Shown here: piece by piece, positions 4,944 through 60,209 of the stretch
Position numbering within the stretch: the stretch's first letter is position 1
Layout: each line of letters opens with the position of its first letter
Source: Siphonodentalium dalli
Taxonomy: Eukaryota; Mollusca; Scaphopoda; Gadilida; Siphonodentaliidae
Assembly: GCA_032622095.1 (NCBI GenBank)
Contig: CP136063.1
Location: forward strand, 29,762,987-29,826,986
Direction of reading: 5' to 3'
DNA length: 64,000 bases
Position numbers and translations under genes: made by a program
Notes under the pieces: generated by a model
Database searches by the model: none
Told to the model about the DNA's origin: nothing
Seen by the model: the letters and a program-made list of their open reading frames with translations, nothing else

Positions 4944-5519
<576 letters not shown>

Positions 5520-7275: not shown

Positions 7276-7369
7276 CTTAGAATGATTACTGACAAGGTTG
7301 AAGATATGTCTGTTTCGATATTGGCTGTTGGGTGAATCCTAAATGTGGTGGATGTATTTGACACCGGGA

Positions 7370-21224: not shown

Positions 21225-22264
21225 CAATGGGAACTATTTTATACCGAATACGAACACTTTACGAAGGTACTTGGTACACGTGGAAATGACGATAAATAAA
21301 AAACATTTATGTGATGGGCGATTAACGAAAATTAGTTTTCGACGCCACCGATGAAGAGTTAATATGAAAATAGAATGATAGATTAATACATGCGCAATAT
21401 AATCAAGTTTATACTCACCAAACATACATGTATATGCAGGAAATGTGATGATTGTATCAAATATTTATAAACATAACAATAGCAATAAAAATTCAAATTT
21501 ACGATGTGTTCAGTTTGGTTTCTGTTTCAGTTCATTTTGTATCTGTCAATATCATCTGTTGGTTTCAAGCCGAGAGTTCGGGTTCATTTTCCAGCACGAA
21601 ATTATCGCCGTCTCTGGTTCCGGTTACTTAGATTGTATTGACCACAAACCCAATTTTACAAACATCTTGTCTGTAGTTGGTGAAATTTCCATCAGTTGAA
21701 CGACATATATTCTTTATTGGCCCTTTTTGGGGAGACAAATGTTGTGACTCTTAACTGCCCGGTAGCATACTTACTCACATGTAGGCTGTGCATTCAAATA
21801 TCGTTTCGTGGATGGTGCTTCTAATCACAACCACATATTTAGACGCACGTTTTTGCGCACAAGACGAAATTTCCTTTGTTCGATTGATACGAGATCCTTC
21901 CTTATGTTCTTCTTTTTAACTATCCACCCATTTAGGGTAAAGCATTCTGGTATATACATATGTACAGTATCTAGATTGATAAAACAACAATTGGATACAG
22001 GTCTGACTATCAGTCTGTGCAAAATTTTAAGTGTGAACAAGTGAATATCTTTAGCCAAGAGACGGAGATCGGTATCTTGAACGGTGTCATTGCCACGGAC
22101 GAGGAGAAATCATTGAACATCGATGGACCAAGAATGAACTGCAGCTTATCTATAAATATGGCCACTACACGAGATAAACAGCGGATATACGGTATATGAC
22201 TAATCGGTATCTGACGTCACGAGACACACAGCGGATATATAGGACTATCTGACTATTCTACACA
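21225..22264 (+). other. ZNF3 upstream flank
   Basis: Matches 12909-13968 upstream of ZNF2. An 84-codon frame (21445-21699; 13131-13385 upstream of ZNF2) differs mainly at residue-changing positions between the two copies, so it is not supported as a gene. A TATA-like TATATA is at 22236-22241. Confidence 0.5.
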
Positions 22265-23396
<1,132 letters not shown>

Positions 23397-29633: not shown

Positions 29634-32600
29634 TCAGGTTCTCACAGTCTGTTCGGCCACGAGCAGCCGACTTCTTCTCCTGTGTATGTCTGCTAGAAGT
29701 TCCCGGCTGTGTAATTCTATCAGCTCTATATCTCTGTCATTGAAGTCGGTGATGTTTGATATGGATTGGTGAGTGCAGTCAAGCATAAGATGTGTGAATA
29801 GCAGCTGGTTTGACATCAGTATCGGATTTTCTTGTATGATTTCCAGATTCTGTAATTTTTCTTTTACTCTTCTGCGAATGGTATCGTAGAGTGAGCAGTT
29901 GGCAATAACATGCTGGCGGTCTTCAGTCTCTGCTCCACAGATGGGACAGGATTTCTTGATACTGTGCTTGTTGAATGTTGCCCTATTAGACTGCAGTATG
30001 TATGTTCCGGTGATAAACCTCGCCTTTATTTCAGCCCGGTGTACATCATGGCGATTGTTTCTTATGTGACGAAATATATGATGGATCTTGTTGACGTCTA
30101 ATGACTTTGCATTTATATAGCTCAAGGTAGACTTTGTAGCGATCTCAGAGGACCAGTCTTTCTGAGTCTTGTCGGTGATTGCTTTACACAGTCGGTTCTT
30201 CCAGTCCTCAGGTGTTGGTGGATTTTCCAGCAGATTATAGGCATTCGGTAGGTCATAAAGTAGAAGGAGTCGTCTGATCATGGAGAACCATATGTTTGCT
30301 TCTTTACTGTGAACAGCGAGTTGTCTGTAGGCGACCTCCCATTCTATGGTGTTCTTGTCAGAGATTATACGATGGAACAAGTTCAAGCCATTTCGGTGGA
30401 TGACAGTCATGATCGGTAGGGTTCCGACAAGGGCAGTTATGGCTACCGACGCAGTCCTTGTAGGTAGATGGAGTATCTGTCGGAGGATTTTGTTCTGGTG
30501 CGCTTCTAATTTTTTGCTCTCTGTGTCGTTGATGTTAAGAATCTCTAGGCCGTAAGTGAGGCGAGGTGTAACATAGAGATTCCAGAGTTTTATTTTCACT
30601 CTTTGTGTGGCACCTGTTTTCCCATGTAGTCCAGCACCCATCAGAGAGTATGCTGTCTTCCTGGATAACGCAAGTTTTTTCTCGATGTCTGGCTTGTTGT
30701 TATTCTGTCGTATAATCCCGAGATGTTCTACTGCAGATGGTGTGATTATTTTATTGTCATATATGATGAAATCTTTGCTAATCGAGGAGCCATTGTAGAC
30801 TAGTAAGTTACTTTTGGTTGGGTTGATGGTGTATCTCTCCATCCTTGAGTACTGGTCAACTTCTTTGATCATCAGCGTCATAGTTGTTTCCGAGTGTGCC
30901 AGGAGGGCAATGTCATCTGCGCAGGTGACATGCGGTATCGTAACAGTACCAATTTCAGCACCTCGGTAGCTGGTCTCTAATGTCCTCAAGAGGGGGTTAT
31001 TGAAGCGTTTGTAGTGTCCTGTTGAATGAATTTCACCTTGCCGTACTCCCTGGAGTATCTTAAATGTTTGTGACAGAGAGCCTTGCCATTTGACTTTACT
31101 TGTCATGCTCGTGTATATTTCCTTTAGTAGGAGCCAGTCGTGTCCAGTTATGCCATCTAAAAACAGCTTATGTAGGAGGATATCATGGTCGACTATATCG
31201 AAGGCCTTTTGTGCATCAAGGGTGGTGAAAAGTAGCTTCTTTTTTCCTATCTTCGCCTCGTTAATACATTCTGATACTAGAAGTGCAGCATTAAGGGATG
31301 AGGTTCCTTTTGTGAAGCCTTTTTGAAGTTTTGACTGCGTTGGTAGTAGGAGTTTTTCATGTCTAGTATTCAGTATATGTTCCAAAATTTTGAGGATAGT
31401 TGACGTGACGGTTATTCCTCTGTAATTCGCTGGATTGTGAGGGCATCCTTTTTTGTACACGGGTGTCAAGTGGCCTTCCATCATTACTTCAGGAATACAG
31501 CGTGTGTGTACAATCGCATTCAGCAGTTTCGTCAGGTATGGTAAGATAACTGTTTGACAGAGTTTTAGATGCTCACTGGTGATGCCTAGGGAGTCAGCTG
31601 CTTTGTTGTTACTGAGCTTCTTCATTGCATGCTTTACCTCTTCGTCTGTTATGTTATTCATACTAGTAATGCTGGTCTCCTTGTGACAGGTATATTCTAT
31701 CGTTTGTAGGTCATTCCTGATACGATCAATATGTGGGTCATCGAATAGTTCATTTTCGGTCGGAGTGGCGAGCTTTTGAAAGTGCTCCTTCCATCCACTC
31801 ATTATACCTTCTGTAGTTGTGAGTGTTTCTCCATTCACGTTGAGTTCAGATATTGCATGTGAGGAAGTAGATCGTTGTTGTTTGACTAGTTGAGAGAAGG
31901 TCTTTGGATTCGGTTGAGCTTCCACAAGTTTCTCAATGGCCTCTGATCGTCTTCTGGCACTCTCTTGTCGTTGTAATTTCTGCAGAGTGGATTTCGCTTG
32001 TTTCATTTATCTGTATTCACTACTCGTTCTGTCAGGTGTTCCTGCGGTTTTCCACTTCCACCAGACTGCCTTCTCATGCTTAATAGCTGCCTTAATGCCT
32101 TCATTCCAGACTTTTGGTTTAGTTTTTAGCTTTATCTGCTCTTTATGTCCTGGAATGCTGGTCTGAGTTGCTTCGATCAGTACTGTTGTCAGATGTTTTA
32201 CAGAGAGATGTAGTTGGTACTCGGTTGTAGGTTCCTCTAGAAAGTGTTGTAACTTTGAGGATACATTCTCGTTGTATAAAGCTTTGTTACAGCGATCCCA
32301 TTTAGGTTTAGGTGTGATTTTGATGTCGTTTTCAACCTTCTTCGTGGATATTTGGATAGACGCACGAACTGGGATATGATCAGACGTATTCAGTGGTTCC
32401 TTGTTGTCCACTAGCCAGGCGAAAGTCAGCTTTCTGGCAGAGGGATTGCAGAATATGTAGTCAATTTCTGCTGTATCTCTTTCATTTGTGTGAAAAAATG
32501 TGGGCGTTCCTCCTTGTTGTGTAAACAGGTCCTTTTTCTTATAGAACTTTATTAAGTTTGAATCCCTGTCATTTTTTGGGTCTCTTGTTAATGAGGCATT

Positions 32601-33078
32601 GAAATCTCCGCATAAGATCACTGCATGGGAGCTGAATTTTTCCAGAATTTCTTCTATTTCCACAAGTACTGCTCTGAAGTCATCAATTTTCGAGTTCCCT
32701 CTAGCAGACATGTACACACATACTATGCAGGTTGGTGGTTGAGTGAGGAGCTCCAGCACTACTATGCGATTGCTTCCATCCGGGTGTAATCTATATTGTA
32801 GGTCAAGATTCGTATTGAAGAATATTGCTGTTCCACCGTAGCCTCTGGGGACTTGATACGGCGAGATGGGGTCGTGTTCATCCACAGACTTCGCATGCAC
32901 AGCTCTCTTGCTTGATAACTTTGCCATTATGGGTTTTTGAAATGCAAACAACCAGTGTTCCTGGACACATAATGTCTGTTTCCTCCAGGAGTTTGTCTAG
33001 ATAGGCTTCATTGCTTTGGACGTTTCTTATATTTATTGTCGCTAGAATGAGTTGTTTCTTCTCTCCGTCTCCTTCCAC
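29634..33078 (-). pseudogene. LINE ORF2: endonuclease and reverse transcriptase, broken
   Basis: Reading on the minus strand, the N-terminal endonuclease starts at 33078 (ILATINIRNVQ). Its QEHW catalytic-Glu motif (32952-32963) lies in a different frame, so there is a frameshift at about 32963-32967. The endonuclease then continues in the 32951-32007 frame with CGDFNAS, AEIDYIF and TSDHIPV. An in-phase TAA at 32007-32009 separates it from the RT frame (32006-29634). That part has ANYRGITV, LDAQKAFDIVDH, GVRQGEI and a CADD catalytic box (Cys where Tyr/Phe is usual), and a C-terminal CPICGAETEDRQHVIANC zinc motif. ORF2 overlaps ORF1 by 37 bp. As it stands this copy cannot make an intact ORF2 protein. 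Confidence 0.85.
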
Positions 33079-35381
33079 CTTGAGGTCTTCGCCCGGTCCT
33101 GGTACAAAAAAGACTGAGACTCGTGCTCAGCCGATTCCGGTATGTGGGAGCTAACAGAGCTGACGTTTGTTATCTCGGGTGATGGCAGCTGTTTCTGCTG
33201 GTAGTTTTCATCCGTAAATGTCACCACTTTTTTTGGTGTTGAGTGTCTACGATCGTGTCCATAAGGGTTTTTGTTCTTTAGCCTTGGTGGAATAAACGCT
33301 GGCCAGCTTGGATTTGATTTGACTTGTTTGTTTTTTCCACCATCAGTTTTCATATTTTCACGGCCAGTGCTGGTATGCATAGACGGAGTTTGTATATCTT
33401 GCGGAGTCGTCGTTGGAGTTTGATACGTGGAGCTCTCCGTGGGCCTGCGCAGGAGTCTGTGATGTAGGTTTTGTTTTGGTTGACTCACTGGAAGCTGTGT
33501 CGGTGGTGGTCCGCCATGTCCAGAGAAATTTTTGACAAGATATTCAGGTCTGTGCCAGAGGTCAGGTCCCATCGGTGGGGGTCGTGATACATTTGGGGCT
33601 TGATATGGCACATGTGTTGGAAAGGACTGCGGTATCTGCATGTTGTACGGTGGCGGTGTAGCATAAGGGCCATGTTGAGCCGGTTGCCTTTGCAGTTCGT
33701 TGTTTTGCCGTTGCAGTTGGATTTGTAACTCTATGTTCGAGAGACGGTTGTGGATAGACTGGATCTCAAGTCGATTGACCTGCTGGGCCAGGTATGCATT
33801 TTCTGGATTATTTGCTGCATAAGTATAGGGATGGTGTTGAGTACTCTCTGGAATCTGGGAGTTTAAGCCGTTTGATTGCGGTGGCATTTGAAGTGAGGCT
33901 TGCACTCTGAGTACACGGTTTGTGTTTTCTAGATCTTTTATTCTAGCTTCCATTTTTAGCATATAGCTATTGGCCAGCTTCATCTGATCCACGTGGTCAG
34001 TGTTCTCGTCAATTTTCTTAGGTTTCGCTTTAGGACGGTCCTTTTTCTTCTCTCCAGGATCCTTTTCAGGAGGAGTAAGCTGTTCAGTGTGCTTGAAGAA
34101 CTTGTGTTTCGCTTTCTCGGTTGGGTTCAGTTGCTTTTTATTACCATTTGTCATGATTTGTATTTCATCAGATTTTCCAGCATTGTCTTCTCCTGGAGTA
34201 GTGTGGTTTTCATCAGGTTTTCTTGCTGATATTTCCCAGATTTGTTGGTATTTACTTAGTTGTTGAGGAGTTTCCATCTTCTCAGTTGGTTGATTTGGTG
34301 CTTCTACCTTTTTTGAGTTGTCAGTTATACGCACTGCACTATAGGTACTGAGGTTTGATAAGGTGCACATTTCGTTTGACTGGTTTTGACGATCCTCTAC
34401 ATCAGTTGCTATGCCGATACTAGTAGAGACGCCAAGTTGTGTCGAATCGAATTTATGTGGACTTTCTTCATCGTCCAAGCGAATTGTCAGGTGGCGACAG
34501 GATATACAGCTGTATTCAGGCCCTTTCTCACTGTAAAATTTCCAAAGGGCGTCATCCAGGTTTTCACATTCTTTATGGAACCAGTTCAGGCATAAATCAC
34601 AACTGAGCCCCTCGTCGCTGACATACATCTTACAGTGGGGGCAGATCCCGAATTTGCTGTTTTCTTCTGGAGACATTTCCTGTACATCTAGTATTGTGCC
34701 GTTATTATCGATGCAAACCATGCTCATTCCACAGTCCGGATGTTCAACACTCTTGGAAACGCACCAGTCTATGAGGGCAGCAATACGTCTGTCAAGCTGC
34801 GTCATTGATGGCTTCTTCATAACTTGCTGCATGATTTCTGGTAGGACTTCATCGTAAAAGGTGTTAGTGTTTCTCCCATTGATGAGGATTGATGACTGGG
34901 TATTATATAGGTTGATGGTGAATTTGGCTTGTTTACCTGCTTTGCCACTTACTCGCTTCCGGAGAGCTCTGATACTTAGCTCAGGTTGGTTCTTCTTCTG
35001 ATCGACAGAGATGATGCGTTCAGCAACGAATTGATGTCGCTGAGAGAATGCTGGATCAAAAAAGGAGCGCAGGATTTCTTGTTTCAGCAATAGGTAGCAC
35101 CCAGCGTTGCACTCAATTTTTAGTTGACGTCCCATGTCCTTTGGTATTATATTTATGAAGGGTCGATCACAGGCTTGTCGCATTTTTTCAAGCGTCTCCT
35201 TTTCATTCAGGGTGTAATTTTTGTTTCGGACACTGGTGCGAGGTGCATTTACGGTGTCGTTTTTGCTCCGGATGATGCCTGGGGACAGTCCATTACTGGC
35301 ATTAGGTGTAGCGTTGGGCACGATTGCCGAGACTTGGTTGTCTGGGACCGGGTTGACGGTTGCTGTTATGGCACGGCGCAT
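33042..35381 (-). CDS. LINE ORF1: PHD-finger, coiled-coil protein
   Basis: An open 779-residue frame. Residues about 160-185 have the NLYNTQSSILINGRN motif. A PHD finger spans about residues 247-295: CPHC, CDLC, WFHKEC and CISC. A charged, Lys-rich segment and a short heptad-like stretch (about 470-500) follow, then a Gln/Pro-rich region (about 550-680) and a basic tail. PHD fingers in ORF1 are known from CR1-like elements, where ORF1 proteins are thought to bind RNA. The frame is intact although ORF2 is broken, so the insertion is probably young. Confidence 0.8.
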   Translation of the reverse strand: MRRAITATVNPVPDNQVSAIVPNATPNASNGLSPGIIRSKNDTVNAPRTSVRNKNYTLNEKETLEKMRQACDRPFINIIPKDMGRQLKIECNAGCYLLLKQEILRSFFDPAFSQRHQFVAERIISVDQKKNQPELSIRALRKRVSGKAGKQAKFTINLYNTQSSILINGRNTNTFYDEVLPEIMQQVMKKPSMTQLDRRIAALIDWCVSKSVEHPDCGMSMVCIDNNGTILDVQEMSPEENSKFGICPHCKMYVSDEGLSCDLCLNWFHKECENLDDALWKFYSEKGPEYSCISCRHLTIRLDDEESPHKFDSTQLGVSTSIGIATDVEDRQNQSNEMCTLSNLSTYSAVRITDNSKKVEAPNQPTEKMETPQQLSKYQQIWEISARKPDENHTTPGEDNAGKSDEIQIMTNGNKKQLNPTEKAKHKFFKHTEQLTPPEKDPGEKKKDRPKAKPKKIDENTDHVDQMKLANSYMLKMEARIKDLENTNRVLRVQASLQMPPQSNGLNSQIPESTQHHPYTYAANNPENAYLAQQVNRLEIQSIHNRLSNIELQIQLQRQNNELQRQPAQHGPYATPPPYNMQIPQSFPTHVPYQAPNVSRPPPMGPDLWHRPEYLVKNFSGHGGPPPTQLPVSQPKQNLHHRLLRRPTESSTYQTPTTTPQDIQTPSMHTSTGRENMKTDGGKNKQVKSNPSWPAFIPPRLKNKNPYGHDRRHSTPKKVVTFTDENYQQKQLPSPEITNVSSVSSHIPESAEHESQSFLYQDRAKTSRWKETERRNNSF

Positions 35382-35947
35382 CGTTGGTATCGGATTGTTT
35401 GAACCTGGTCGTCAGTGTGGGCCTCTTGGAGGAAAAATAAGTAGGCTGGGCCTCGAATTATATCAAATTCGAAGAGCACAAAACAGTTTCTGATTGTCAG
35501 TAGGTCAATGAGACCTGCGGCTGTTGTTGTTTTGGAATAAAAAAATTCCAGGAAAGTTAAAAACGTTTTGAACAATCATAAAAGTTTTAAAAGTTTTTGA
35601 ACAATCATAAAAGATAACACTAAAATATAATGATGATACTATTTCAACCACCGGCAGAGTTCATCAAGCACTATTTGCAGGTTCTCTCGTCAACAACATC
35701 GGAATTTTTCAGAATTCAAGATGGCGGCCTGGTGATCGCGGAATAAAATACGAATAAAACAACACAATTTGATTTAAAATACGCAAATTTGCGTTAAAAA
35801 GAGTTCGGAGGAAATACAGTCTCTATTCGGACACAAATTCGCACAGCTCGCGTTTTAAAATACACTAAAAGCGATTAAAAACACAAAATTTGGTCAGAGT
35901 ATAGAATTTTCCACGTCCTCTTCAGGGTGCACTCGGTCCGTCCATAG
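35382..35947 (-). promoter_or_regulatory. LINE 5' leader with a YY1-like site
   Basis: About 566 bp precede ORF1. At 35717-35728 the sequence read on the minus strand is GCCGCCATCTTG, which fits the YY1 consensus; human L1 leaders carry a similar site. Whether it is used here is unknown. Confidence 0.4.
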
Positions 35948-36280: not shown

Positions 36281-38642
36281 TAGTTGGTGAACCCAACTAT
36301 TCAAACAGAGCTAGACGCTCTCGAATAGTTGGGCCGCCGTAGCTTTATTCACGACCTCCAAGTGCTTTTCCATTATTATGAATTTTTTTCCCACTTATAA
36401 CATGAAAATACAAACATTGTATATAAATTATGTTGAAGACTAATCTGTTCTGAGTGAGTATCAACAAGCTACCCGACGAAAAAAAAAAAATGTGACATTT
36501 GTAGTTGTTTTAAAAATACATGGTAGACTGCTTGCCGAAAAACTATTTCGGCAAAAAATTAGACACTACCCCGCCTCATTTCAATCACCAAATTCACATA
36601 TAACTAGATGGTTTTATCTGCTACCATTATGTTGTAAGATCAAGTGATAATGGCAGATTACGAAGGCATTGTGTACAATACCTGACTCTCGAAATATAAT
36701 CCGAACTTTGAGATAAATCCGAGACCGTTAATTTGTCAACATTTAAAACTTTATCTGTAGTAAATTGACGGAACGGAACAGGCGGAACGAACTTACAACT
36801 ACATAACCGGAAAGGAGATCAGACGATCGGCCGAGTGAAAGCAACAGCAACAACTATTTTTTGAATTTTAAGTTTTAATAAACAATGGAGTTTGATTTCA
36901 AAGAAACAATGACCAAGGGCGTGGCGATATGTGTGGGGACACAATATAAAGTGTAAGCCAAGGCCGTGGCCGGCTCCAAATAAAATGTGTAAACGGAGTG
37001 TTATGTTTGGACCGTTGTTTCTCAATGGATATTAATGAAATTTGGTATATATGTCCGGGCTGAGGCATGGAATACACTAACGTTTGAATTGTTTTTAAAT
37101 TAACAAATTTGTTGATTTTCTTCAACTTTTTCGTTCTGGAACACACATTAATATTCAAATAGTGGTCTCGGTATCAAACGCCCAAGTTCCGACCACGTCG
37201 CCATCGCTATGCGTATATATATAAGATATACGTGCCAATAACGTTGACAAAGCATTGGCGACAATATGGAGTCGAAACCGAGACAACTATCTGAATATTA
37301 TAGTCTAAGAGTCGTCAATTAGTTAAAGCCGATTACCTACGCCGCTAAAACACCGTATGGCTACCTTACATATATATTACAATTTGACGACAGTTGGTAA
37401 GTTAGGGTGTCAATTTGGAAAATTCTCACTCAATTAGGATGTAAACATTTTGGTCTTCACGAAAGAGGTTGGAATAATAATTTGGACACCTAATAAGGCA
37501 CTTTAGCCACGCCCTTAAAAAAAATGATTTGATGATATATGATGATGTCATGGCGATGATGATTTTAATAATAATAATATGTTGATGTCGGATGATGACG
37601 ATGGTGATTATGAAATGGTTACATGCATATATACATATATAATCAATAAGTTTATTTCTCATGAACCTATACACACACATAGGTATGGAGATATAAACAC
37701 AATGGCAGCCGATGGGTCATATGTACGCCACATAAATATGTTTGGCGTATTGGGTAGATGCTCAGCTTTTGGAAATTGAGGCTTTTCTTCGTGTTGGTAG
37801 ACATGCTGACAATGATATTAATGGCACACTTTAACGTGTGTTAGGACATTCTAATGCGGTTTCCGCATATTTTAAATAGTCATGTTCTACCAATCGACGC
37901 GGGGATAGACTCTTTGGGTCAAAATAAGCTCACAGGCAACGAGAGCACACTGATAATTAAAAGTATACTGAATTATTGAGGTTAATATGAGATTAATATC
38001 CAAACAAGGTCGCACCTTCCAACATGACCCATGATGAAATTTTAATTAAATACCCCCACCAAAGCTCAAAACGTGCAGGTCTGAACATGCATATTTTAAA
38101 ACAAAAATAGAAAGTATATGCATGGGTAACCTTTAAAAACATTTGAATATACATATATATATCGTTGTCTCCAAACTCATCGTGTTATCCATTGTTGTTA
38201 TATGTGCTTTTAAAGTTTAAAAATATTTGAATCGAAAATAAACTCGAAACAAACAAGAACATGTTATAGCCGGAATCCAATTATGTTCGTTCCGTTTCCG
38301 ATTCCTTATTCACTGTTTTGACGGATTTTTACAAATACAAAATGGCTGAAAGTTCGAGGCGGTAGAAATATGCTCTCGCTTTATGCGAAGAATGTCACGA
38401 CTAACATCTGAAACATGCATTGACACCACACTAGAAATGTACTAGAAGCTCTGATCTACAAGTATGTGGTAGTTTTGGTTGTTAAATAATATTTTTTAGT
38501 GTGTGTTATCGCTTGTGAAAAGTCGAGTAAATGTCCATACCAATGATTAGTGACGGAGTACTGCTTTCAGTGATATACAGTCCTGACTTTTATAGAGCTA
38601 TGCTCTGATAATAAAAGTCAGGTTTACGGACTATTCTGGTAT
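36281..38642. mobile_element. 2.36-kb insertion with a hairpin at each end
   Basis: Compared with copy 1 (around 3505-3516), the ZNF4 upstream block is split. The 12-mer ctattctggtat stands on both sides (36269-36280 and 38631-38642). Near the left end is an 11-bp stem, CCCAACTATTC (36292-36302) with its inverse (36323-36333). Near the right end is a 12-bp stem, CCTGACTTTTAT (38582-38593) with its inverse (38611-38622). Both loops contain a second 5-bp stem, AGAGC/GCTCT. No frame over 90 residues exists, so it is non-autonomous. ZNF2, ZNF3 and ZNF5 also lack the insertion. The family is unknown. Confidence 0.7.
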
Positions 38643-38899
38643 GTGCATATGTACAGCAGATAGATTGATAAAACAACAATTGGATACATGTCACGGAGAC
38701 GTGCAGGTCTGACTATCAGTCTATGCAAAATTTCACGTGTGAACAGTTCACGAATATCTTTAGCCAAGAGACAGAGATCGGTATTCTATCTTGGACGGTG
38801 TCGCTGCCACGGACGAGGATAAGTCGTTGAACATCGATGGACCAAGACTGAACGGCAGCTTATCTATAATGATTGCCACTTCACGAGATAAACAGCGCA

Positions 38900-38905
38900 T
38901 ATATA
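38900..38905 (+). promoter_or_regulatory. TATA-like box of ZNF4
   Basis: TATATA 40 bp before the ATG. The longer spacing than in ZNF1 comes from a 10-bp insertion at about 38917-38926. Confidence 0.3.
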
Positions 38906-38944
38906 CATGTAGGACTACAATCATGTATCTGACTATTCCACACA

Positions 38945-40081
38945 ATGGTAGATGCTAACCTGAATAATCATGAGACCACCAACACAGAGAATAAACGACA
39001 TGCTTGTGACGTATGTGGGAAACTGTTCGCCACTTCAGGCAGCTTGGTGAGACATAAGAGAATCCACACCGGAGATAAGCCTCACCATTGTGAAATATGC
39101 GGAAAATCATTTAATCAATCGGGCAGCTTGGTGAAACATAAGAGAATTCACACTGGAGATAAACCTTACCCTTGTGCTATATGCGGGGAATCGTTCACTC
39201 AATTGAACAACTTGGTGAGACATAAGAGAATCCACACTGGAGATAAACCTTATCGTTGTGATATATGCGGGGAATCATTTATTCGATCTGACATATTGGT
39301 GATACATATGAGAATCCACACCGGAGATAAGCCATATCATTGCGATATATGCGGGAAATCTTTTAATGCATCGAGCGACTTGGTGATACATAAGAGAATC
39401 CACACCGGAGATAAGCATTACCGTTGTGATATATGCGGGAAATCGTTTAATCGATCGAGCACCTTGGTGGTACATAAGAGAATCCACACCGGAGATAAGC
39501 CTTACCGTTGTGATTTATGCGGGAAATCATTTAATCGATCGAGCGCCTTGGTGGTACATAAGAGAATCCACACTGGAGATAAACCTTTCTGCTGTGATAT
39601 ATGCGGGAAATCATTTAATGATTCGAGCGCCTTGTCGATACATAAGAGAATCCACACCGGAGATAAACCTTATCGGTGTGATTTATGTGGAAAATCATTT
39701 AATCGATCGAGCGCCTTGGTGGTACATAAGATAGTCCACACCGGAGATAAACCTTTCTGCTGTGATATATGCGGGAAATCATTTAATGATTCGAGCGCCT
39801 TGTCGATACATAAGAGAATTCACACCGGAGATAAACCTTATCGGTGTGATTTATGTGGAAAATCATTTAATACATCGAGCAACTTGGTGACACACAAGAG
39901 AATCCACACCGGGGACAAGCCTCACCGTTGTGATATATGCGGGAAATCATTCAGTCAATCGTGCAGCTTGATGACACATATGCGAATCCACACCGGAGTT
40001 AAGCCTTACAGTTGTGATATATGCGGGAAATCATTTAATCGATCGAGCGCCTTGGTGGTACATAAGAGAATCCACACCTGA
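38945..40081 (+). CDS. ZNF4: 13-finger C2H2 zinc-finger protein
   Basis: Paralog of ZNF1: 378 residues, the same N-terminal tail and the same 13 fingers. I count four residue changes (for example Asp20 to Ala, one linker Pro to His) and about five silent changes between the two. This weakly suggests that the 13-finger frame is kept by selection or is simply very young. All 13 fingers keep both Cys and both His. It ends at TGA in the linker Gly codon, as in ZNF1. The insertion at 36281-38642 separates the gene from the distal part of its ancestral upstream region. The likely role is a nuclear DNA-binding protein, with an unknown target. Confidence 0.75.
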   Translation: MVDANLNNHETTNTENKRHACDVCGKLFATSGSLVRHKRIHTGDKPHHCEICGKSFNQSGSLVKHKRIHTGDKPYPCAICGESFTQLNNLVRHKRIHTGDKPYRCDICGESFIRSDILVIHMRIHTGDKPYHCDICGKSFNASSDLVIHKRIHTGDKHYRCDICGKSFNRSSTLVVHKRIHTGDKPYRCDLCGKSFNRSSALVVHKRIHTGDKPFCCDICGKSFNDSSALSIHKRIHTGDKPYRCDLCGKSFNRSSALVVHKIVHTGDKPFCCDICGKSFNDSSALSIHKRIHTGDKPYRCDLCGKSFNTSSNLVTHKRIHTGDKPHRCDICGKSFSQSCSLMTHMRIHTGVKPYSCDICGKSFNRSSALVVHKRIHT

Positions 40082-40663
<582 letters not shown>

Positions 40664-40704
40664 AATTCCTTAAATCGACATGTAGTTTGCAATCAAATCG
40701 AAAA

Positions 40705-40710
40705 AATAAA
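40705..40710 (+). terminator. Possible poly(A) signal after ZNF4
   Basis: AATAAA 42 bp after the final stop of the finger tail, conserved at 5562 after ZNF1. Confidence 0.3.
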
Positions 40711-41873
40711 TTTTCGATATGCCTTTTTATCATCATCATAATATGAAAATATAGTATATGTGGAATGTGTCACGTTAAAATGAGCACCGGAGGATCATGT
40801 TCCTATTTTTCAGCTGCCATGAAAACGGTAGGCACTTTTATGCATGTTTTCTCCGTTACCAACCCGAAAAGGTAGCATATGGGCACATACAGTCTATTTA
40901 AACATGTGGCAACAGTTTTATATTGTCACAATCAATACACAATGGTGGCTATAGTCACATGCATGCAATTTTATAAAATACTCATGATTCGAGATGTCAC
41001 TAGCCAGATGTTTAGGGTCAATGGCTACCCGTATATCTTAGGATTACCGTGCAATTAAAAATTCATTCCGAATCCAACACTCTTTATCACTCTATATGGT
41101 GTATAGACAGACGAAATGGGTCAATTTCTTATGTGGGGATATATACGATTTCAAAAACAAAACATGTGGAAAATATTGATGTGGCGTTTGTGATATGCGA
41201 CACACATACTTTACAGTGGGCGTGGTAACGGAGAAGACACATTTTGGGTCTTTATGTTCCTAAATATTGCGAATCGTTGATGCACACTAAATTTTGAATA
41301 ATATGTGACACAAACGTGTTCGGTTGAATTTCTAATTTCGCTGGAAACATATTAACTATTATTTGAAACTACATGCAGTCCCATGTACTTTGAAGAATGT
41401 GTATATGTTTCCAGTAAACCCATATCATTGATCTATGCTGGTGCACACAATTCTGTGCATCTAGAAATAAGACCTGCGTAATCATGCCATTCAATTTTAT
41501 TTGATTACATAAATATAAGAATGTGTTAATATTTGTCGAACAAGGAATACCTGACAATTCAAACGCCCGATGTAATATTAGCATGGACATGATGGTAACG
41601 GAGAAAACACCTATATGTAGTTATATACGACATGTATGGAAGTTTATGAATGAGGAATATTTTGCTATATTCAAACCGGTTTTGGACAAGTTTCCAAAAA
41701 AAACTGCCAAAACAAAATGCATTGTTTTATTCATGGATTGGTACTAGTATGCATTAAAATATGATTAAAATTCGAAATTAATTTTAAATAGCTAGTAGCC
41801 TTCAATTAATTTCCTGCCTATTTTTAAATCAATTGAATAAATGTCATCGTTACTAGTGTCATTCACATTGAGT

Positions 41874-42431
41874 CTATATGTCTAAACATGACAAACGCGT
41901 GAAATTATCACCGTCGTCAAAGACACCGTAATCCTCTCCGCAACCTTCATGAAACCACTTGACATAATCTGAGCACAACACCCATTCGTCGCGTTTACTG
42001 GGATCGAGTGGATCACCATAAACCCAGCCACACTTCCCACAAGGATACGCATCTTGACAGTTATTTTCCGCACTCTTTTTTGAAGCTCGCTTGCCTTTGA
42101 TGACCGTTGACCGAGAACCATTAGACTCGCGAACATGTGGTGCATCGTTGTGAACTTCCAATTGCATTTCAGGTCGGATTCACCATTTGAAGTTAGGAAC
42201 GGGTAGCACATAGGGTAAAACCAATTTCAGGGCGCTTTCGTTGAGGTGAATAAATGCGACATTAACATTGGCGTGATTGCCCCAATCACAAAATGCGGCG
42301 GCGTTCTGTATCACAAATTTACCGGTCTTCACTGCAACGTCAGCCAACCTCTTGGAGATCCCTCCAATTCTATCACACGGCCCTTTTCCATGACCTGCTT
42401 CCAAATATTGCCAGGTAGCTTTCACGCCCAT
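41874..42431 (-). pseudogene. Broken Cys-rich, HGKGP-motif protein fragment, copy 2
   Basis: As copy 1 at 6724-7275, with the same in-phase TGA. It has two extra codons (Lys-Leu) in the SAL..VLPYVLP region and a few substitutions. Confidence 0.5.
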
Positions 42432-42529
42432 CTTAGAATGATTACTGACAAGGTTGAAGATATGTCTGTTTCGATATTGGCTGTTGGGTGAATCCTAAAT
42501 GTGGTGGATGTATTTGACACCGGGAACAA

Positions 42530-43090
42530 TATATAACACCATTTGTTTGACATAAATCGGCCAATATATACCAAGAAATAGCATATGCATGGGTGTCCTA
42601 TTTTGAACCCCTCTGGACAGCGACAATTTTGGATCAGGTTGAGGTGTGTGAGGTGTTTAGAAAGAGTACCTGTGGAGGGACACCCTACAACACCCTTTGT
42701 TTGACCTAAATCGGTCAACGGGACGAAAAATGGCATGTCATATTTGAACCCTTCTGGTCGGCGGGCATTTTGGATCGGGTGGTGTGAAAGGGGGGGGGTG
42801 GATATTTAGATTATCTTGGGGCACCCTTTGTTTTACCTAAATCGACCAAGGGGTGCCCTATTTGTACATCTCTTGATGGTGTCCATTTTAGATCGTGGTG
42901 TGGTGAAGGGGTGGGGGTATTTAGATTGGCCCCCTACACACACCTTTTGTTTGACCTAAATCGGCTGAGAAAAGGCACGGTGCCCTATTTGAACCCTTCT
43001 GGACGGCGGCCACTTTGGATCTGGATGGGTGCGTGGATAGAATATGTGTGTGGGGGGGGGGGGGGGGGGGCAGCATACAAAACCCTTTGT
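42530..43090. repeat. G-rich tandem repeat, copy 2
   Basis: Five imperfect units against four in copy 1. Ends with a run of 19 G (43052-43070), which is only 6 G in copy 1. Confidence 0.65.
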
Positions 43091-45713: not shown

Positions 45714-48165
45714 GCTTGCTTGCTTGTTGTGGATTTCCCTCCTTTAAGTGAGGAGCACCCCATTATAATGGGTATAAAAATAATGGAAGTAAAAATAAGT
45801 CAAATAAGACCAGGTAAAACTACAGGATGATAAAATGGTTGGTAAAATTGTGGTACTAGTGAGTTAAAAGATTTGTGTGTGCGTAAGTTGCACTTAAAAA
45901 CTTTTAAGTTGAGCTTTCATATGTACATATGTACATGTATATTTTTGTTTTGTTTTTAAGATTGGTATAGTTAAAATTGTCGTGTTGACAATAATATTTA
46001 CAGGTAGTTGTTTTGCCTGTACAGCTCGGCTAGTTTGTCATTTTATATGTGCTTGTCTGCTTCTGTTTTCAAAGTGTTTACTTTATGCACATGGATTGAG
46101 TATAAGAAATTTCTTGCCAGTTTTTCAATTTGTTCTTTTTCTATATCGGTGAGGTTCCAGGTTTCTAGTTTTGTGCAGTCTAAGGTTAATTGAGTTAAGA
46201 GTTCTGGTTGATCAATAATGTATTTGTCAGTGGTAGTTTTTGAGAGACATAATTTGAGTTTTTGTATGTAACGAAGTCGTTGGTTACTAGTGTTCGTACA
46301 TTGTGAAATGAAGTGTATTCTGTCCTCATCAGCTAGTTTGCATAGTGGACATATGGCAGAGGTCAGGTTTTGTCTGAATCTTTTTCTATTTATTTGTAGT
46401 AAATAAGTGTCTGTCATCAACAATGTTTTTATAATAGCCTTTTTTGTGGCAGCGGGCGAGTATTTTGATGAATCCCATACAAGATGACATTTGCTGCTGG
46501 AATTTTTTTGCAGTTTGATCATTGCTAATGTTGTTTTACTGGAGAACTCTCTGTCATTAATATCATGCCAATATTGGTATATAGCTTTTTTACATATTGT
46601 TTTCCATTTGTTGGCATCTTCCTTACTGTGGATGGTATTTATGATATGCAGTGGGTCAGGAAGGGTATATTTGGAAAGTATGTCTCTGACATGTATAAAC
46701 CAGCTATGGCTGTTGTCATTTTTCATGATAAGTTGCCTTATTGCAAGATCTCGCTCTGCAGAGTTTTGTGTTTTGGCTATATTAATATAGAATGTTGTTA
46801 TTTTGAGATCTATAGTGCCTTGGATGGGAATAGCTCCAATAAGTGCATTTGTAGCAGCATTTGCTGTGCGTGTTGATAAACTCTGCAGTTGTCTCATGGT
46901 TTTTCGTTGGAAACGTTCGAGTTCATCTATGTCTTTTTTTTCATATGTAGGATTTCTATAACATGCAGCATTCTAGGAATGACAAAAGTGTTCCACATTT
47001 GGTATGCTATTACTGGTGATATACCGTTTGTTCCATGTAGGCCTGTACCCATCAAAGAGTATAGGGTTCGTCTGCCCATTGTTATTCGTTTTGGGATATC
47101 TGGGGTATTTGTTGGATTACGCTCTACACCTAGGTGTTTGGTGGAGCCTACGATATTAACAGGAGTTCCACCTAGGACAGTTTTTATTTCACCATTCATT
47201 TTTTGTGTAGATGTTTTCATTTGGACAATTTCGCATTTAGTTGCGTTCATTGCGAATCGATCTTTACATGAGTTGTTGTATACAATACTTGTGAGAGTTT
47301 GTAAATCAGATGTTGTTTTTGCTAAGATGGCTACATCATCTGCACAGGTGGGGGCTGTTATATCAATTGTGCCAATTTTAAACCCAGCTGCATTATTACT
47401 TAGCTGATTTAGCATGTCGTTGTTAAATCTTTTATAGAGCATTGCTGATAATTTAGCCCCTTGTCTTATTCCTTGGTGAAGTAGTATATCTGAGGAGTAT
47501 GATCCACCCCATTTTACCTTTGTATTCGCCTCATGATGTAATGAATTTACAAGTAGCCATAGGTCGCTGTGGATCCCATCAATGAAAAGTTTTCTCAGTA
47601 GGCTTTTATGCCATACAACGTCAAATGCTTTTTCAGCATCCAGGGTTTCTAATATTAATGTCTCATTTAAGTCTTTGCTTTCATTGTATGCTTCAGTTAT
47701 CATAAGCCCAGCAACTAGAGGTGATGTGCCTTGAGTGAAGCCACGTTGCATTTTATTTTGTGATGGTAATAGTATGTTGTCTAGTTTGTCTTGCAGGGTT
47801 GCTTCTAGGATTTTACATATTATGGAGCTGATAGTTATGCCCCTGTAATTCCCTGGTTTTGTTGGGTCTTTGTCCTTTTTTGGTACAGGTGTTAATATGC
47901 CGATTTTTATTTCTTTTGGCACTTCTCGTTTTTCATATATAGTGTTTATGATGTTCATGATTATTGGGGCAGTTTCTTCTATGCTACATGTATATTTGAG
48001 GTGTTCAGCCGTAATTCCAGCATAGTCAGCTGCTTTATTTAGTTTGAGCTTATTGACAATTGTTTTAATTTCATGCAGTGTGACTGGTTCTAAAGATGGT
48101 GTATTAGCACGACATATTTGTTCAATAGCTTCAATATCAGCCGAGACTTGTTTGTGGAATGTATC
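45714..48165 (-). mobile_element. 5'-truncated LINE with 6-bp target duplication
   Basis: Flanked by ATCAAT on both sides (45708-45713 and 48166-48171). The empty site, a single ATCAAT, is at 11496-11501. On the minus strand it contains only the RT part and a 3' tail ending in repeats of GCAA type. It is a different LINE family from the one at 29425-35947, but related in domain order. Confidence 0.85.
46043..48165 (-). pseudogene. LINE reverse transcriptase, truncated and frameshifted
   Basis: On the minus strand the RT domain has NYRGITI, LDAEKAFDVVWH, GIRQGAKLSAMLY and APTCADDVAIL (again Cys in the catalytic box). The frame is lost at a run of eight T at 46934-46941 and continues in another frame to 46043, with CPLCKLADEDRIHFISQC. 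The endonuclease part is absent through 5' truncation. The first residues of the open frame up to 48201 come from flanking DNA. Confidence 0.85.
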
Positions 48166-48496
48166 ATCAATATGCACGCTTGGTATAGAATATATACACA
48201 AAACTGCGCGTGTGTGTTACTGTTGTCAGTATATCGGACGAGTTCAATGGCGTAGGATGGCACAATCTTGATGGCCAGTATTGTTTTCCTTAAGAGGCGC
48301 GTGCATGAGTATCATACATCGGTCAGTAACAAACATGCAGTTGGGTCTGTTTACCACACGCTCGATCGATATATTCTAACCGACTCTTCCCCACCGATGT
48401 CTCTGTATCCACTGTTTCTTTGCTGAAAGTGCTCAATTTCAGGTAAAAAACGCATATATTTAACCATAAAACCTGCTTTTTAGTGACTTCATTTGT

Positions 48497-49653
48497 CACA
48501 GATTGGTTGTTTGTATTGTTTTGTTCCACAGATATAAGCGATAATGAGTATAATTAACGTTTATTTGTGACAAAATTGCACAATATAATTTCTGGTGTCT
48601 GTTAACAGTAACCACTATTGTTCGTTAGCTGAAAAAACACACATATTTAGACCAGAAAATATTCTAAATAAAATTAATATTAATCGATAGAAGCATTTCC
48701 GGACAGGAGTCTTCGATTCAAATCTAATATTTTATACCCTGGTAACTATATAATACATGTTTACAAATAGATAATCCACCTTTAAATAGTTGCGTTGGTA
48801 TACAATAATGGATATGAACTGAAGACCCATGTCCAGAAAAGCTTCTATCAATTAACATTGATTTTATTTCGAATATTAAATCGGGACCGTTCATGTTACT
48901 ATTTTTAGAACAGACCATTCGGATGATACCATATTGCGATATACTAGAGCACTGGGCTGTTCCTACGGCAACGCACCGAAAGTCAAATGTCATAGATATG
49001 TTGTTTGTATTGTTTTGTTCCACAGATATAAGCGCTAATAAGTATAACAATTTTGTCACAAATAAACGATAAAGGTGGATTATCTCTTTGTAAACATGTA
49101 TTATATAGTTACCGGGGTATAAAATATTATATTTGAATCGAAGACTCCTGTCCGGAAATGCTTCTATCGATTAATATTAATTTTATTTCGACCAATATGT
49201 GACATTTGACATTCGTTGCGTAGCCGTAGTAACAGCCCAGTGCTCTATATCGCAATACGGTCTCATCCAAATGGTCGGTTCTAAAAATAGTAACATAAAC
49301 GGGCCCGATTTAATATTCGAAATAAAATCAATATTAATTGATAGAAGCTTTTCCGGACATAGGTCTTCTGTTCATATCTATTATTTTATACCCACGCAAC
49401 TATTTAAAATTTGTTATTTAAAGAGATAATCCATCTTTAATTAAATAAAATTTCTGGTCTCTGTTAACGGTAACCACTATTGTTCGTTAGCTGAACAAAC
49501 ACACCTTTTTAGACCAGAAAATATTCGAAATAAAATTAATATTAATTGATAGAAGCATTTCCGGACAGGAGTCTTCGATTAAAATCTAATATTTTATACC
49601 CCGGTATTGGCCGGTAACTATATAATAAATGTTTACAAAGAGATAATCCACCT
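48497..49653. mobile_element. Mosaic of TTAA-family MITE pieces, copy 2
   Basis: Duplicate of 11832-12904, but with a complete right terminus at 49073-49190 where copy 1 has only a short stub. Confidence 0.65.
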
Positions 49654-49794
49654 TTAACGATGGGAACTATTTTATACCGAATACAACACTTTACGAAGGT
49701 ACTTGGTACGCGTGGAAATGACGATAAATAAAAAATATTTAGGTGATGGGCGATTAACGAAAATTAGTTTTCGACGCCACCGATGAAGAGTTAA

Positions 49795-49890
49795 AGGTGG
49801 ATTATCTCTTTGTAAACATGTATTATATAGTTACCGGGGTATAAAATATTAGATTTTAATCGAAGACTCCTGTCCGGAAATGCTTCTATA
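49795..49890 (-). mobile_element. MITE terminal fragment at the block edge
   Basis: Inserted at TTAA 49791-49794. The empty sites are 'gagttaatatg' near 13048 and 21358. It is cut off at 49890 by the next element. Confidence 0.7.
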
Positions 49891-49990
49891 GTCCAGACGC
49901 CAGGAATTTTTTTTTAGATTCTGTTCAACCGGCCACCAAGAAAATTTCCGCCTATTGCCTGTTGTGGGGAACTACATTGCGGTTCATGTA

Positions 49991-50757
49991 AGGGTGGATG
50001 TAATTTCTGAAAGTGTTGCAAATTTTTTTTATTCATGGTTTTTGATTGAATAAAGCTTAAAATAACCATAAACTGATATTTCAAACTACAGATGACACTT
50101 TATGTCATATTGGCATTATTTCCCTTTAAAATGTTAGGAATAGAGATATTATTTCACATCGCCACACAAGATTTTGGAAAATAAATACTATTTTCGAAAA
50201 TAAATTATTTAAGTGCGTTTTTTGGCCAAATATTTGCTTTCGTTTCAATTTATTTATGAAACTGATTGCACACAGCTTGTAACTCTGGATAATGCCTTGA
50301 ATGACTATTTTTTGTAAAAAATATAAACCTCCCCCCTAAAATTAGAAAATTGTCATTTTTGGCAGTTTTGATCATAAGACGCTTGTTATGTAATATCACA
50401 ATGGAAATACACCAGTACCCGATCTTACCGTTGTCACAATGTCAACGGAGGGTCACATTAGTACCGAGTTGTAGCTTTAAGCTAAACCTAGTGATTGCAT
50501 ATAAATATCCAAGACGGCCTCTATCATTCAATAAGTGAAATCAGACCATACGGATGTGATCATATTATATTTAGTTGCAGGACATAAAGCTCAAGTTTGA
50601 ACAACTTCTGAATGCCTAAAAGTTCATACAGCAACTGAAAAAGTTAACTTCCATAGTTTTGTAAGGTGATATAATCCTGAGTTGTAAGAATTTACATTCA
50701 CAACAAGCACTGAAATGGCAATATAATCATTTTGTTTTTTGGGAAAAATTTCGCCAC
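49991..50757. repeat. Left inverted arm
   Basis: Inverted copy of 54241-55070. Short frames within it are not genes. Confidence 0.75.
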
Positions 50758-50905
50758 TAAGTAAAATAACATGTGCAAATTGTAATTGGTACGAAATAAA
50801 ACTAGTTGGGTATGCTATAAACTTTTCTCATCGCTCACTTCTCCGTCACTCGTACAGTTGTCACACAGTTATGCATTGAACATCCTCTTTCCTACAACGG
50901 CAACG

Positions 50906-53900
50906 TCATGTACTGCAATCGGACTTGCACTTGCATATGGTGAGTTCGAGAACGGCAGTCGGAGCTGGAGCGAGTGACATCATTTCCGGAACAAGGTGGC
51001 CATTATAATTATTAAGTATCCAGCCATTTGGGTCATGGTAATGGCAGCAACAACATTGGGAAAAGAGCATGAGTCCATATATACGTTCGATAGTTAACGC
51101 GTTTTGGGTGCGATTGAATGAGTCCATGGTCGGTGGTAGTTTGTCCCTTCTCACGTTCTTCGTAGCGCAAGTCATCCAGGGATAAGGAATCACGGTTGGA
51201 ATAAACCAAAGAAACAAGAGACACAAATGTTTCCCTCATATGGTTCGGAATGCGAGTCGGGTCCTCCCCCCATCTGCGTAAACGCCGGGATCAGTTCTGG
51301 GTGATCTTTCAATGTTCTGAACCATTTCAATTTCCTAATATAACTGAATGCGTTTGTCGAATCGCATCCGCTCAATTAATGAATTGCTGGAATAATCAGT
51401 GACATGTCCTTGCCCACAACATTTGCACATTCATGCACTGGGATATATCGACGTCGTTTGCCATTACCAGTTAGGATGAATAACTCGTATACCCAGTAGT
51501 ACACAAAACATTGGGCACATCGCCAGAACGTCTGAGTCACCACTCCTAATAATGAATATTTCAACTTGCAGTTCACTTGCTGCATGCCCCAAGTGTACGA
51601 ACATTCTTGAGTCAAGTTTTTTCGCGGTCGGACTCAAGATACCCAGACCAACCGCAACCATCCTTTGAGAAAAACATTACTTTCTTTGAATCTGGAAATC
51701 CACCCGCAAGAAACACTTGCTGGTCATGCGGCAACAACAATGGTATCTTTAGGGACCAATTATTGAATAAGAAGTTGACCATGTTTATTTTGTGAAGTTC
51801 TGTTCGAGTAATGCATTCCACTCATTTCCAAAGTTTGCAACGCAACTGAGGATTTTGAATGGGGCGTGATATAGAACCGGTTTAGAGCTGCAGACTGGCA
51901 ACACAAATTCCGATATTTACCACAGTCCATATTTATGGATTGTTGTATGGCCATAACATGCCAAACTTCAGAGAAAGGCTGGCATGTGTCTTTCGGAAAA
52001 ACGACAAATGCTATATGCAGTTTCTTCTCGAACATTAGTCTCGACTCCGCTACATTGACTATGGCCCCACCGGGCGTAGTTTACATGTTTACACATGAAA
52101 TCCAGAGGAATCATTTCTGCTGGTGTCCCAATTTCATGCAACACATTATCATGGTCAATTAGATGCGGCGGTTCAATGTGTTCTTCGTAGCAACTAAGCC
52201 AGTCTAAAACGACTTCCACCTCAACTGTCCAAATGCTTTGTTCATCAAACGAACTCCACGGTTATATACGACTTTCCACATTCAATCCGGTTTACAGTGG
52301 CGCCACCATGCACCCAGGTTCTATAACAATGTCCTCGAAGCCACTTCATAGCTATGTACATCCCTACCATCGTCGTTATCAAATTCATCAGGGTTCCTCC
52401 ATTCAATCATATGAGCCTTGCAGTATGTTGCTTCGTCGTATGCTACATAAGACCAATTCTGTCCTAGAGTCCTGAACAAATTCTGAAATCGTTTCGTCGT
52501 TGTATCTACTGTTTCAAAATCAGTCGCTGAACCAGGAACCATCGGACAACATCCAAGGTTAGTCTTCGTCACGTTGATTCGATTAGTGACACTAGCATGA
52601 TATACACTCCAGCCAGGAACGTATTCCGATTTACCTCTCTCAAAATGTACATCGAATAACTTAGTCGGTATTGTGTAAGAGAACATAGCTTTTGTCTCAT
52701 GTATGCATGTTCTTTGGAACACACGTTGAACCAACGGATGCACATTTTCCAGTTAGATGCACTGGGCCCGGTTGCTTCCCTCTGAGATTAGGACACACGA
52801 ATATTATTATTAAATGAAATATGGTTTCTGGTTGGCGTTCATCCTTCTTTGGAATCACACCGAAGCAACCCTACTGAGATCAGCTGCCTGATATAACACC
52901 ATATTCACCAAGTCGTGGTTATATCCACCTACATATGCTGTCACTGCCCCATATGTCATATTGGTTGGCACTGTCAATCCGTCTCTCTCAATTTGTTAAA
53001 AACATGTGTAATACTGGACGATAACTGCAGTTCCTTAAGCATAGCCCTGGTGTTTGATGCGACATTGATGGCATTCTGTATATTAAGGGATTTACTGATC
53101 GCGAGTTCAGGTTTAGTCCGTGATTTATCAATAACACACACTTTGTCAGAGTAATTCAGTTCAATCTTTTCCTTCGGTTTCTGTTTAGTGTAGACCTTGC
53201 TACACTTCGGTTTGCCTATTTGTCGTAATATGTCCAGGAACTTTGATAGTAGATGACCCATATCATATGTGACACCTTTTTCAAAGTCCGGGAGAATACA
53301 CCCATCAAATGTTCCAGTGCAACATCGTATGGGGTAATCGTGTTACTGGATGTGGTGGTCTCCAGCAGATATTTACTATGACACAACCTGTGATGTCTTG
53401 CCTCAAGTGCTATCAACTTCAAAAAGTCAAACCCAACACGCCGTTGCATTATGTCATCCTCCTTTTCCTTCGCACATCGTTCGGTAGTTTCGCAAGATGT
53501 AAATGTACTGACCCGAACTAATGTCTTTACTCCCAAGTGAGACAACTGTTAGCATATAAGACATCTAGTTTTGACGTCGAAATATTCTCTTGTAACTTGT
53601 GGATTTGTCTGATCAACAGTCGTGGATGTGGGCTGTTTGACTAATCTGAGATCCGAAGAACTTGTGAAACTGGAGATTGGAGAAACAATTCTTATGCAAA
53701 CTTATGTTGAGATCTTTAAGGTAAATTCCATATTCTTCATATGATGATCGACGAACATCCAGAGCAACTGAAAACGATTCCAAACAAGAATCAGAAGCTT
53801 TCCGCAGATTCTCGTCTTTTAATTTCTGACATACTAAACACCGTTTGAAATTCAACGAAAGTTTACACTTTTTGGCAACGGGTATTAATTTGAGAGGACT

Positions 53901-53948
53901 CGTCTCCATTTCAATTGAATCACTGTAATCTCCAGTTAAATGCAGCAA
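50906..53948 (-). pseudogene. Broken multidomain protein with FEN/XPG-like motifs
   Basis: Read from 53948 down to 50906 in changing frames. In order: a Cys motif CLVCQKLKDENLR; a second C/H segment (53545-53216); VPGWSVYH, then TDFETVD and YDEATYCKAHMIEWRNPDEF (52743-52321); MCKHVNYARW (52219-51968); EVWHVMAIQQSINMDCGK (52035-51760); FLAGGFPDSKKVMFFSKDG (51821-51612); LDSRMFVHLGHAA and RSGDSDVLAMC (51661-51464); MSGCDSTNAFSY (51375); KLPPTMDSF, GWIL and a final ICKCKSDC. I recognise this order from large uncharacterised proteins that are repeated in many invertebrate genomes, where the segments read EADT...DTDVLVL...GCDTTSAF. Many frameshifts make it non-functional. Confidence 0.6.
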
Positions 53949-54240
53949 ATTATTAAGGTTTGATACCAGGAATTTTCCGGAAAATTACAAAGCGGGCAGT
54001 ATCAGTTAGAAAACATTAATGAATCGAACGCTGATTTTAGCCCTAAAAATGCACTTCATTGAGTATTTTTCGAAATCAGTATAACTATTAGAGCTTGTGT
54101 TGTAGCTACGACATATGAAATCTTTATTTTAACATAATGATGATTAGTAATGCCATAAAGCCATAACTTGTCATAGCTAATTCGAGTTTTCGGTTTATGG
54201 TTATTTTAAGCGGATAACGATGATGCGGATAACGATGAAT

Positions 54241-55070
54241 AATGGCGAAAAATAACTTTTTCACACAACAAAATAATATTGCCAGTTAAGTGCTTGTTGT
54301 ACATGTAAATTCCTATAACTCAGGATTATATTACTTTACGAAACTATGAAAGTTAACTTTTTTCAGTTGTTGTATGAACTTCTAGACATACACAAGTTGT
54401 TCAAACTTGGGTTTTAAGTCCTGCAACTAAATATAAATTGATCACATCCGTATGGTCTGATTTCGCTTATTGGATGTAGAAGCCGTCTTTAATATTTATA
54501 TGCAATCCAAGGGTTTGGTTTAGAGCTACAGCCCGGTACTAACTTGACCCTCCGGTGACATTGTGAACACGGTAATATCGGGTACGGGTGTATTTCCATT
54601 ATAATATTACAGAACAAGCGTCTTTTTAACGAAACTGCAAAAAATGACAATTTTCTAATTTTAAGGGGGAGGGTTATATTTTTTACAAACAATAATCATT
54701 AGAGGCAGTATCTGAAGTTTGTATCTGGCAATTTGACTTCCCAGTTTATTGTAGAAATTTATTACTCTTTGAAACAAGGAATTCATTAGGGACATTACAA
54801 GCTGTGTGCCATCAGTTTCAGAAATAAATTGAAACGAATGCAAATATTTTCCCAAAAAAAACCCTTAAATATTTTTTCCAAAATCTTGTGTGGCGATGTG
54901 GAATACAATATCTATTACTAAGATTTTGAAAACAAATAATGCCAAAATGACATAAACTGTCATCTGTAATTTGAGTTTTCAGTTTATGGTAATTTTAGGT
55001 TTAATTCAATTAAAAACCATGAATAGAAAAAAAAAAGCAACACTTTCAGAAATTACATCCACCTACCCTG
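54241..55070. repeat. Right inverted arm
   Basis: Inverted copy of 49991-50757. Confidence 0.75.
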
Positions 55071-55165
55071 CCTGTGAAAATAGTACTGTCATCCTGAATA
55101 ATGGCAAAATGTCCTCCATTTGCATTGTTTACATTCTTAGGAACAATTTTTCTTGGTATGGGAGA

Positions 55166-57381: not shown

Positions 57382-57404
57382 GGACTACCTGACTATTCTA
57401 CACA

Positions 57405-60209
<2,805 letters not shown>

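Follow-up and report, generated by a model that had tools for sequence, protein, structure and literature searches.

The stretch of DNA analysed here, hereafter called the window, comprises 64,000 nucleotides of contig CP136063.1 of the scaphopod Siphonodentalium dalli (GCA_032622095.1) and corresponds to C3:29762987-29826986 of the host genome (2.23 Gb in 9 contigs). Between positions 49889 and 55063 it carries a pair of long inverted arms around the remnant of a minus-strand gene. With good confidence, this locus is interpreted as a decayed non-autonomous DNA transposon with terminal inverted repeats of approximately 0.86-0.95 kb and 3-bp target duplications. It would derive by deletion from a larger element encoding N-terminal modules of zinc-binding type, a presumed DDE/D core, a FEN1/XPG-like nuclease and a cysteine-rich tail, and would most likely belong to the AcademX lineage.

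Anatomy of the window copy

The left terminal inverted repeat (49889..50751, 863 bp) lies at the 3′ end of the gene and opens with the 14-bp tip TAGTCCAGACGCCA (49889..49902, plus strand); its extent was set by a first base equal in other copies and by arm homology. A preliminary description, made from the sequence of the window alone, had put the left limit at 49891, two bases inside this end. The right repeat (54254..55063) is truncated and is devoid of its outer part and its tip; in the related locus L011 the equivalent arm reaches a mirror-image tip. Arm homology stops at 55063 and the right tip of the copy was not found in the window, where the tip at 49889 is the only exact one, so that 55165, proposed earlier as the right limit, does not mark the end of the element. 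In BLAST, the inverted arms (49993-50751 versus 54254-55063) matched with 86% identity over 465 bp (E 8e-153) and with 81% over 291 bp (E 4e-80). Just inside the right arm, the outer arm segment is present a third time in diverged form (54001..54211; 68.5% over 216 bp), which indicates that the arms themselves carry an old internal duplication.

The gene remnant occupies 50845..53984 on the minus strand and is interrupted by stops, frameshifts and internal deletions. Read in the direction of the gene, it starts with cysteine/histidine modules in the form of two CxxC ... HxxC units (53216..53984), which lie in different frames and are less broken in locus L029. These are followed by the junction of a first internal deletion relative to L029 (52994..53007, approximately 455 bp gone) and by the middle domain with the motifs VPGWSVYH, TDFETVD, DEATYCKA and NYARW (51970..52752), the presumed DDE/D transposase core. 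A second deletion junction (51793..51794) marks the loss of 861 bp, including the first half of the nuclease. Of the FEN/XPG-like nuclease, the second half (LDSRMF ... SGDSDVLAM ... GCDSTNAF ... KLKWFRTL) is present in broken frames at 51240..51625, and the cysteine-rich C-terminal tail (CKCKSDCST*RCRCRKEDVQC), which is alike in L029, L039 and L040, at 50845..50940. VPGWSVYH, EVWHVMAIQQSIN and GCDSTNAF share one minus-strand frame and NYARW, LDSRMF and SGDSDVLAM another, with stops in between. Because the motifs sit in several frames split by stops, the gene of the window was classified as a remnant. Of the arrangement proposed in the preliminary description, inverted arms around one minus-strand gene, the arms were confirmed, as was the position of all listed motifs on the minus strand; an intact gene was not, since the frames are broken and coding sequence is deleted in comparison with the relatives.

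Copies elsewhere in the genome and their target sites

The element has defined ends, target duplications, empty sites and shared deletions, and it has spread repeatedly. A search of the host genome at the DNA level returned at least 76 matches to the gene region, with the best 40 of 253 candidates scored; the further first-look searches scored 86 of 826, 99 of 3691 and 108 of 2034 candidates, and the copy numbers are lower bounds. Twenty stretches were fetched together with their flanks. Four of them did not enter the count of target duplications: L009 and L010, which are segmental duplicates and have no right tip; L023, whose two tips point the same way and whose flanks are shared with L024; and L027, which has no tips. 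The count was made on the remaining 16 copies, which have two tips each. In L009 and L010, similarity to the window continues past the element, with flanks at approximately 98%, and the right truncation is the same, which identifies them as segmental duplicates of the window locus. For the other fetched copies, similarity to the window outside the element is limited to dispersed repeats and zinc-finger arrays.

The two-tip copies measure 5258-5942 bp, and the arm of L011 that matches the 863-bp left repeat of the window has a length of approximately 946 bp. Left-type tips of other copies open at the base equivalent to window position 49889, and TAGTCCAGACGCCA is exact at both tips in 13 of the 16 copies, one tip being altered in each of L013, L017 and L028. 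An exact 3-bp target duplication was found in 13/16 copies and a 2- or 4-bp duplication in none of the 16; in a control with mixed left and right flank pairs, 3 bp matched in 22/240 cases. The target sites lean towards C-TNA-G (C before in 7/13, T first in 9/13, A last in 10/13, G after in 7/13), a tendency drawn from a small sample with no control. At two loci the joined flanks correspond to an uninterrupted repeat elsewhere in which the 3 bp are present once, with 100% identity over 102 bp for L015 and 98.3% over 117 bp for L016. On the basis of the tips, the 3-bp target duplications and the clean empty sites, the element was identified as a transposon with inverted repeats of approximately 0.9 kb. 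The preliminary description had named a lack of flanking inverted repeats in other copies as grounds for giving up its reading; the reading survived this check, since other copies do have these arms, together with the tips and with target duplications of 3 bp.

At 48494-49889 the window holds nested copies of a dispersed repeat with inverted parts (ATAGAAGC...GCTTCTAT), and it was copies of this repeat that received the insertions L015 and L016.

The coding part of the family was compared in 19 copies, in each of which the gene is fragmented into 12 to 16 pieces. The stretch C445-690, which belongs to the second deletion and thereby to the lost first half of the nuclease, is missing in 19/19 copies, including the window, L009 and L010, and the stretch B155-285, which belongs to the first deletion, in 18/19, the remaining copy covering 13 of its residues. 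In five copies aligned with L029, approximately 455 bp, 861 bp and a third stretch of approximately 230 bp of coding sequence are missing with near-constant junctions. The mean pairwise K2P distance among the 19 copies is 0.0295. Because the copies share the same gene-killing deletions and yet stay this similar (K2P approximately 3%), the family presumably spread by means of a transposase supplied in trans. The second deletion also recurs in the more diverged L032, L033, L034 and L037, for which reason the deletion-bearing lineage is probably old. The window copy itself is a dead, deleted derivative within a recently copied family.

Fuller relatives and the encoded protein

Two relatives have fuller genes, and their tips are exact in L031 and different by a single base in L029. 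L029 contains an open frame of 1036 aa, preceded by a frame of 327 aa, and carries the tip TAGTCCAGACGCTA upstream of the gene. Its 5′ arm matches the arms of the window and L011 at 72-77% over stretches of 158-190 bp; its 3′ arm is absent, and a 165-bp satellite array starts at that place (L029:1-2830). The 3′ arm of L031 matches the left arm of the window at 94% (395 bp) and 85% (583 bp), ends in the exact tip and adjoins a gene with an open nuclease region. L031 is without the 5′ part of the gene, an inverted tandem repeat of YGPVPPRDGH units (L031:5564-5934) standing in place of its 5′ half, and its tip comes straight after zinc-finger coding sequence.

The protein consists of two N-terminal CxxC...HxxC modules, the middle domain, the C-terminal region and the cysteine-rich tail. 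In three distant families, at C1:209957607/209959347 (1174 aa), C5:100815781/100817503 (959 aa) and C5:173890863/173892642 (1542 aa), the middle and C-terminal regions apparently form one open frame, a judgement based on their identical frame and open-frame length. An order of acidic residues D, D, E-x-E/D, D-x-D and G-x-D followed by a helix-hairpin-helix was seen by eye in L029, L039 and L040. L039 and L040 (35% and 33% identity to L029) retain the motifs D, FD/CD, EEAD, DTD and G-C/S-D; L041 has VYAD where the others have EEAD. A five-motif pattern drawn up post hoc matches L029 (via the neighbouring ESD and LGKD) and 15/20000 shuffled sequences. When an alignment of five members was compared by HHalign with four archaeal FEN1 proteins, a score of 28.9 (P 0.0017) was obtained, which none of 300 column shuffles reached (maximum 22.5); in this register GCD is aligned with GTD, and the helix-hairpin-helix with the segment that comes next. 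A four-member alignment scored 24.9, compared with a maximum of 22.5 in 100 shuffles and with 16.7 on reversal. The C-terminal domain is probably, though not certainly, a FEN/XPG nuclease, and the middle domain is presumed to be the DDE/D transposase core; the protein family would likely represent the transposase.

In the mechanism proposed here, a transposase provided by fuller copies would bind the long repeats, cut at the tips and insert the element with a 3-bp stagger, which would leave the observed duplication. The nuclease half may process flaps during excision or gap repair.

Several results weigh against this interpretation. Target duplications are lacking in three of the 16 two-tip copies (L013, L022, L028), and clean empty sites are limited to 2/16, with weak partial ones for L024 (81% over 57) and L025 (73% over 94) and none for the other 12 in the DNA searched. 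Downstream of the gene, L030 (approximately 780 bp) and L036 (approximately 540 bp) show no similarity to the window arms beyond 38 bp, and none of the loci fetched combined both tips with a full gene. For the nuclease, HHalign itself assigns the FEN1 match a probability of 15% (five members) or 2% (four members), and the profile test with close relatives alone gave no signal. No Pfam family exceeded its cut-off in any protein piece scanned, the middle domain included, and PF00867 (XPG_I) matches 7 places in the genome, none of them among the listed transposon places. The FEN/XPG likeness noted in the preliminary description has moderate backing from profile comparison and none from Pfam; it lies beyond the reach of Pfam XPG_I and phmmer. 

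In further searches, the PDB yielded no sequence match better than E 1.4, and NCBIfam gave none above cut-off for two window pieces. Weak Pfam matches to L1R_F9L (E 0.0007 to 0.15) were rejected as short and under the curated cut-off. No relatives outside the host were found in the viral contigs, prokaryote genomes and phages searched.

Genomic distribution, alternatives and classification

Across the genome, 56 exact occurrences of the 16-base tip were counted, against 0 of its backwards control. Within C3:11.1-63.2 Mb, an interval of 52 Mb and 2.3% of the genome, 45 of the 56 tips are located (binomial chance approximately 4.5e-63, the interval being set by the matches themselves and the count being inflated by segmental duplicates). 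This concentration might stem from hopping over short distances, from weak purging or low recombination, or from duplication of blocks. Of the 22 loci scanned for C2H2 zinc-finger motifs (L009-L029, L031), 9 contain two or more.

The window itself contains large C2H2 zinc-finger arrays at 3795-4943, 13998-15218, 22253-23077, 38933-40081 and 57393-59950, some of which belong to blocks repeated inside the window (for example 3503-7527 and 38630-42685, matching at 97%). Non-LTR retrotransposon-like frames (endonuclease- and reverse-transcriptase-like, recognized by eye) are located on the minus strand at 29634-35411 and 46043-48216. A long open frame of low-complexity repeat (SLLTCSFSLSSLALF...), open in several frames, is found at 17976-20063, and a tandem repeat with a period of approximately 353 bp and approximately 98% identity extends from 61032 to the end of the window at 64000.

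An XPG-type nuclease and terminal inverted repeats are features of Academ elements, and Kolobok elements duplicate TTAA at their targets. The Academ superfamily and its AcademX lineage reportedly go back to Kapitonov and Jurka in 2010 and Kojima in 2020. The lineage is cited here via excerpts of PMC10045372 and PMC4455052; according to the former, AcademX elements generate target duplications of 3 or 4 bp and encode a nuclease. Because the 3-bp duplication and the probable nuclease fit this published description, the present family is likely a new member of AcademX. That the transposon may be undescribed, as the preliminary description had suggested, is not supported, since its features, compared by description, fit a published lineage.

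Among the alternatives, the one retaining most weight, although improbable, is a superfamily not yet named and unrelated to Academ, in which a DDE-type or other transposase is fused to a FEN-like nuclease and generates 3-bp duplications. The absence of any Pfam family above cut-off in the scanned protein pieces would suit such a novelty, but the combination of 3-bp duplication and nuclease is the one given for AcademX in the excerpt of PMC10045372, and the element length is near the mean of 5565 bp reported for bivalve Academ in the excerpt of PMC10294476, although the copies here are deleted. Marginally less probable still is a DDE-plus-FEN1 lineage distinct from Academ, whose transposase-fused flap nuclease would act in excision or end processing and which would have spread largely within one zinc-finger-bearing chromosome block of 52 Mb.

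Assignment to another superfamily with 3-bp duplications is very unlikely: CACTA/EnSpm, PIF-Harbinger and Zator likewise make such duplications, but the tip starts with TAGTCC and not with the CACTA/CACTG signature of CACTA/EnSpm, the TWA duplication of PIF-Harbinger fits 5/13 sites (4 TTA, 1 TAA) and fails to fit 8/13, and no Pfam transposase model exceeded its cut-off. Equally hard to credit is an origin without transposition, in which segmental duplication multiplied a palindromic gene block along with the chromosome's zinc-finger clusters: the shared flanks of the window, L009 and L010 and those of L023 and L024, the large duplicated blocks inside the window and the accumulation of tips on one chromosome stretch agree with it, and it holds for these two groups of loci, but it was rejected for the 16 two-tip copies, which have 16 different flank pairs beginning at the tips (all 12-base pairs distinct); 13 of these copies show 3-bp duplications, clean empty sites exist for two, and three lie on other chromosomes, C1 and C6.

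A protein family that the preliminary description called common and unexplained in invertebrate genomes gains an identity by its link to defined transposon ends, to target duplications of 3 bp and empty sites, and to a nuclease that is probably FEN1-like. The locus is an example of a deleted derivative that outlived its own gene and crowds one chromosome block, and it offers a setting for studying the coexistence of transposons and C2H2 zinc-finger clusters in the same territory. As a cut-and-paste element it represents a useful but not radically new case.

Compared with known systems, the family resembles Academ in its terminal inverted repeats with a common 14-bp tip (863 bp in the window, approximately 946 bp in L011) and AcademX in the 3-bp target duplication (13/16 copies) and the probable nuclease, a likeness to the published description. 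The curated bivalve Academ elements, with a mean length of 5565 bp, are close in size to the 5258-5942 bp found here, and, according to the excerpt of PMC10294476, Academ is almost confined to bivalves among molluscs; those elements are autonomous consensus sequences, whereas the present family is a deleted derivative whose full element would be longer. With the FEN1/XPG nucleases (PDB 1b43, 1rxv, 3ory, 4wa8) it appears to share the order of acidic motifs, and a profile alignment covers GCD and the helix-hairpin-helix, although here the probable nuclease is set inside a long transposon protein. The KolobokP/E/D/H elements, as far as the excerpt of PMC9587614 describes them, are likewise eukaryotic DNA transposons in which a nuclease or helicase accompanies a DDD/E transposase as an accessory, but their nucleases are of other types and KolobokP has long direct repeats, whereas the family described here is characterized by 3-bp target duplications.

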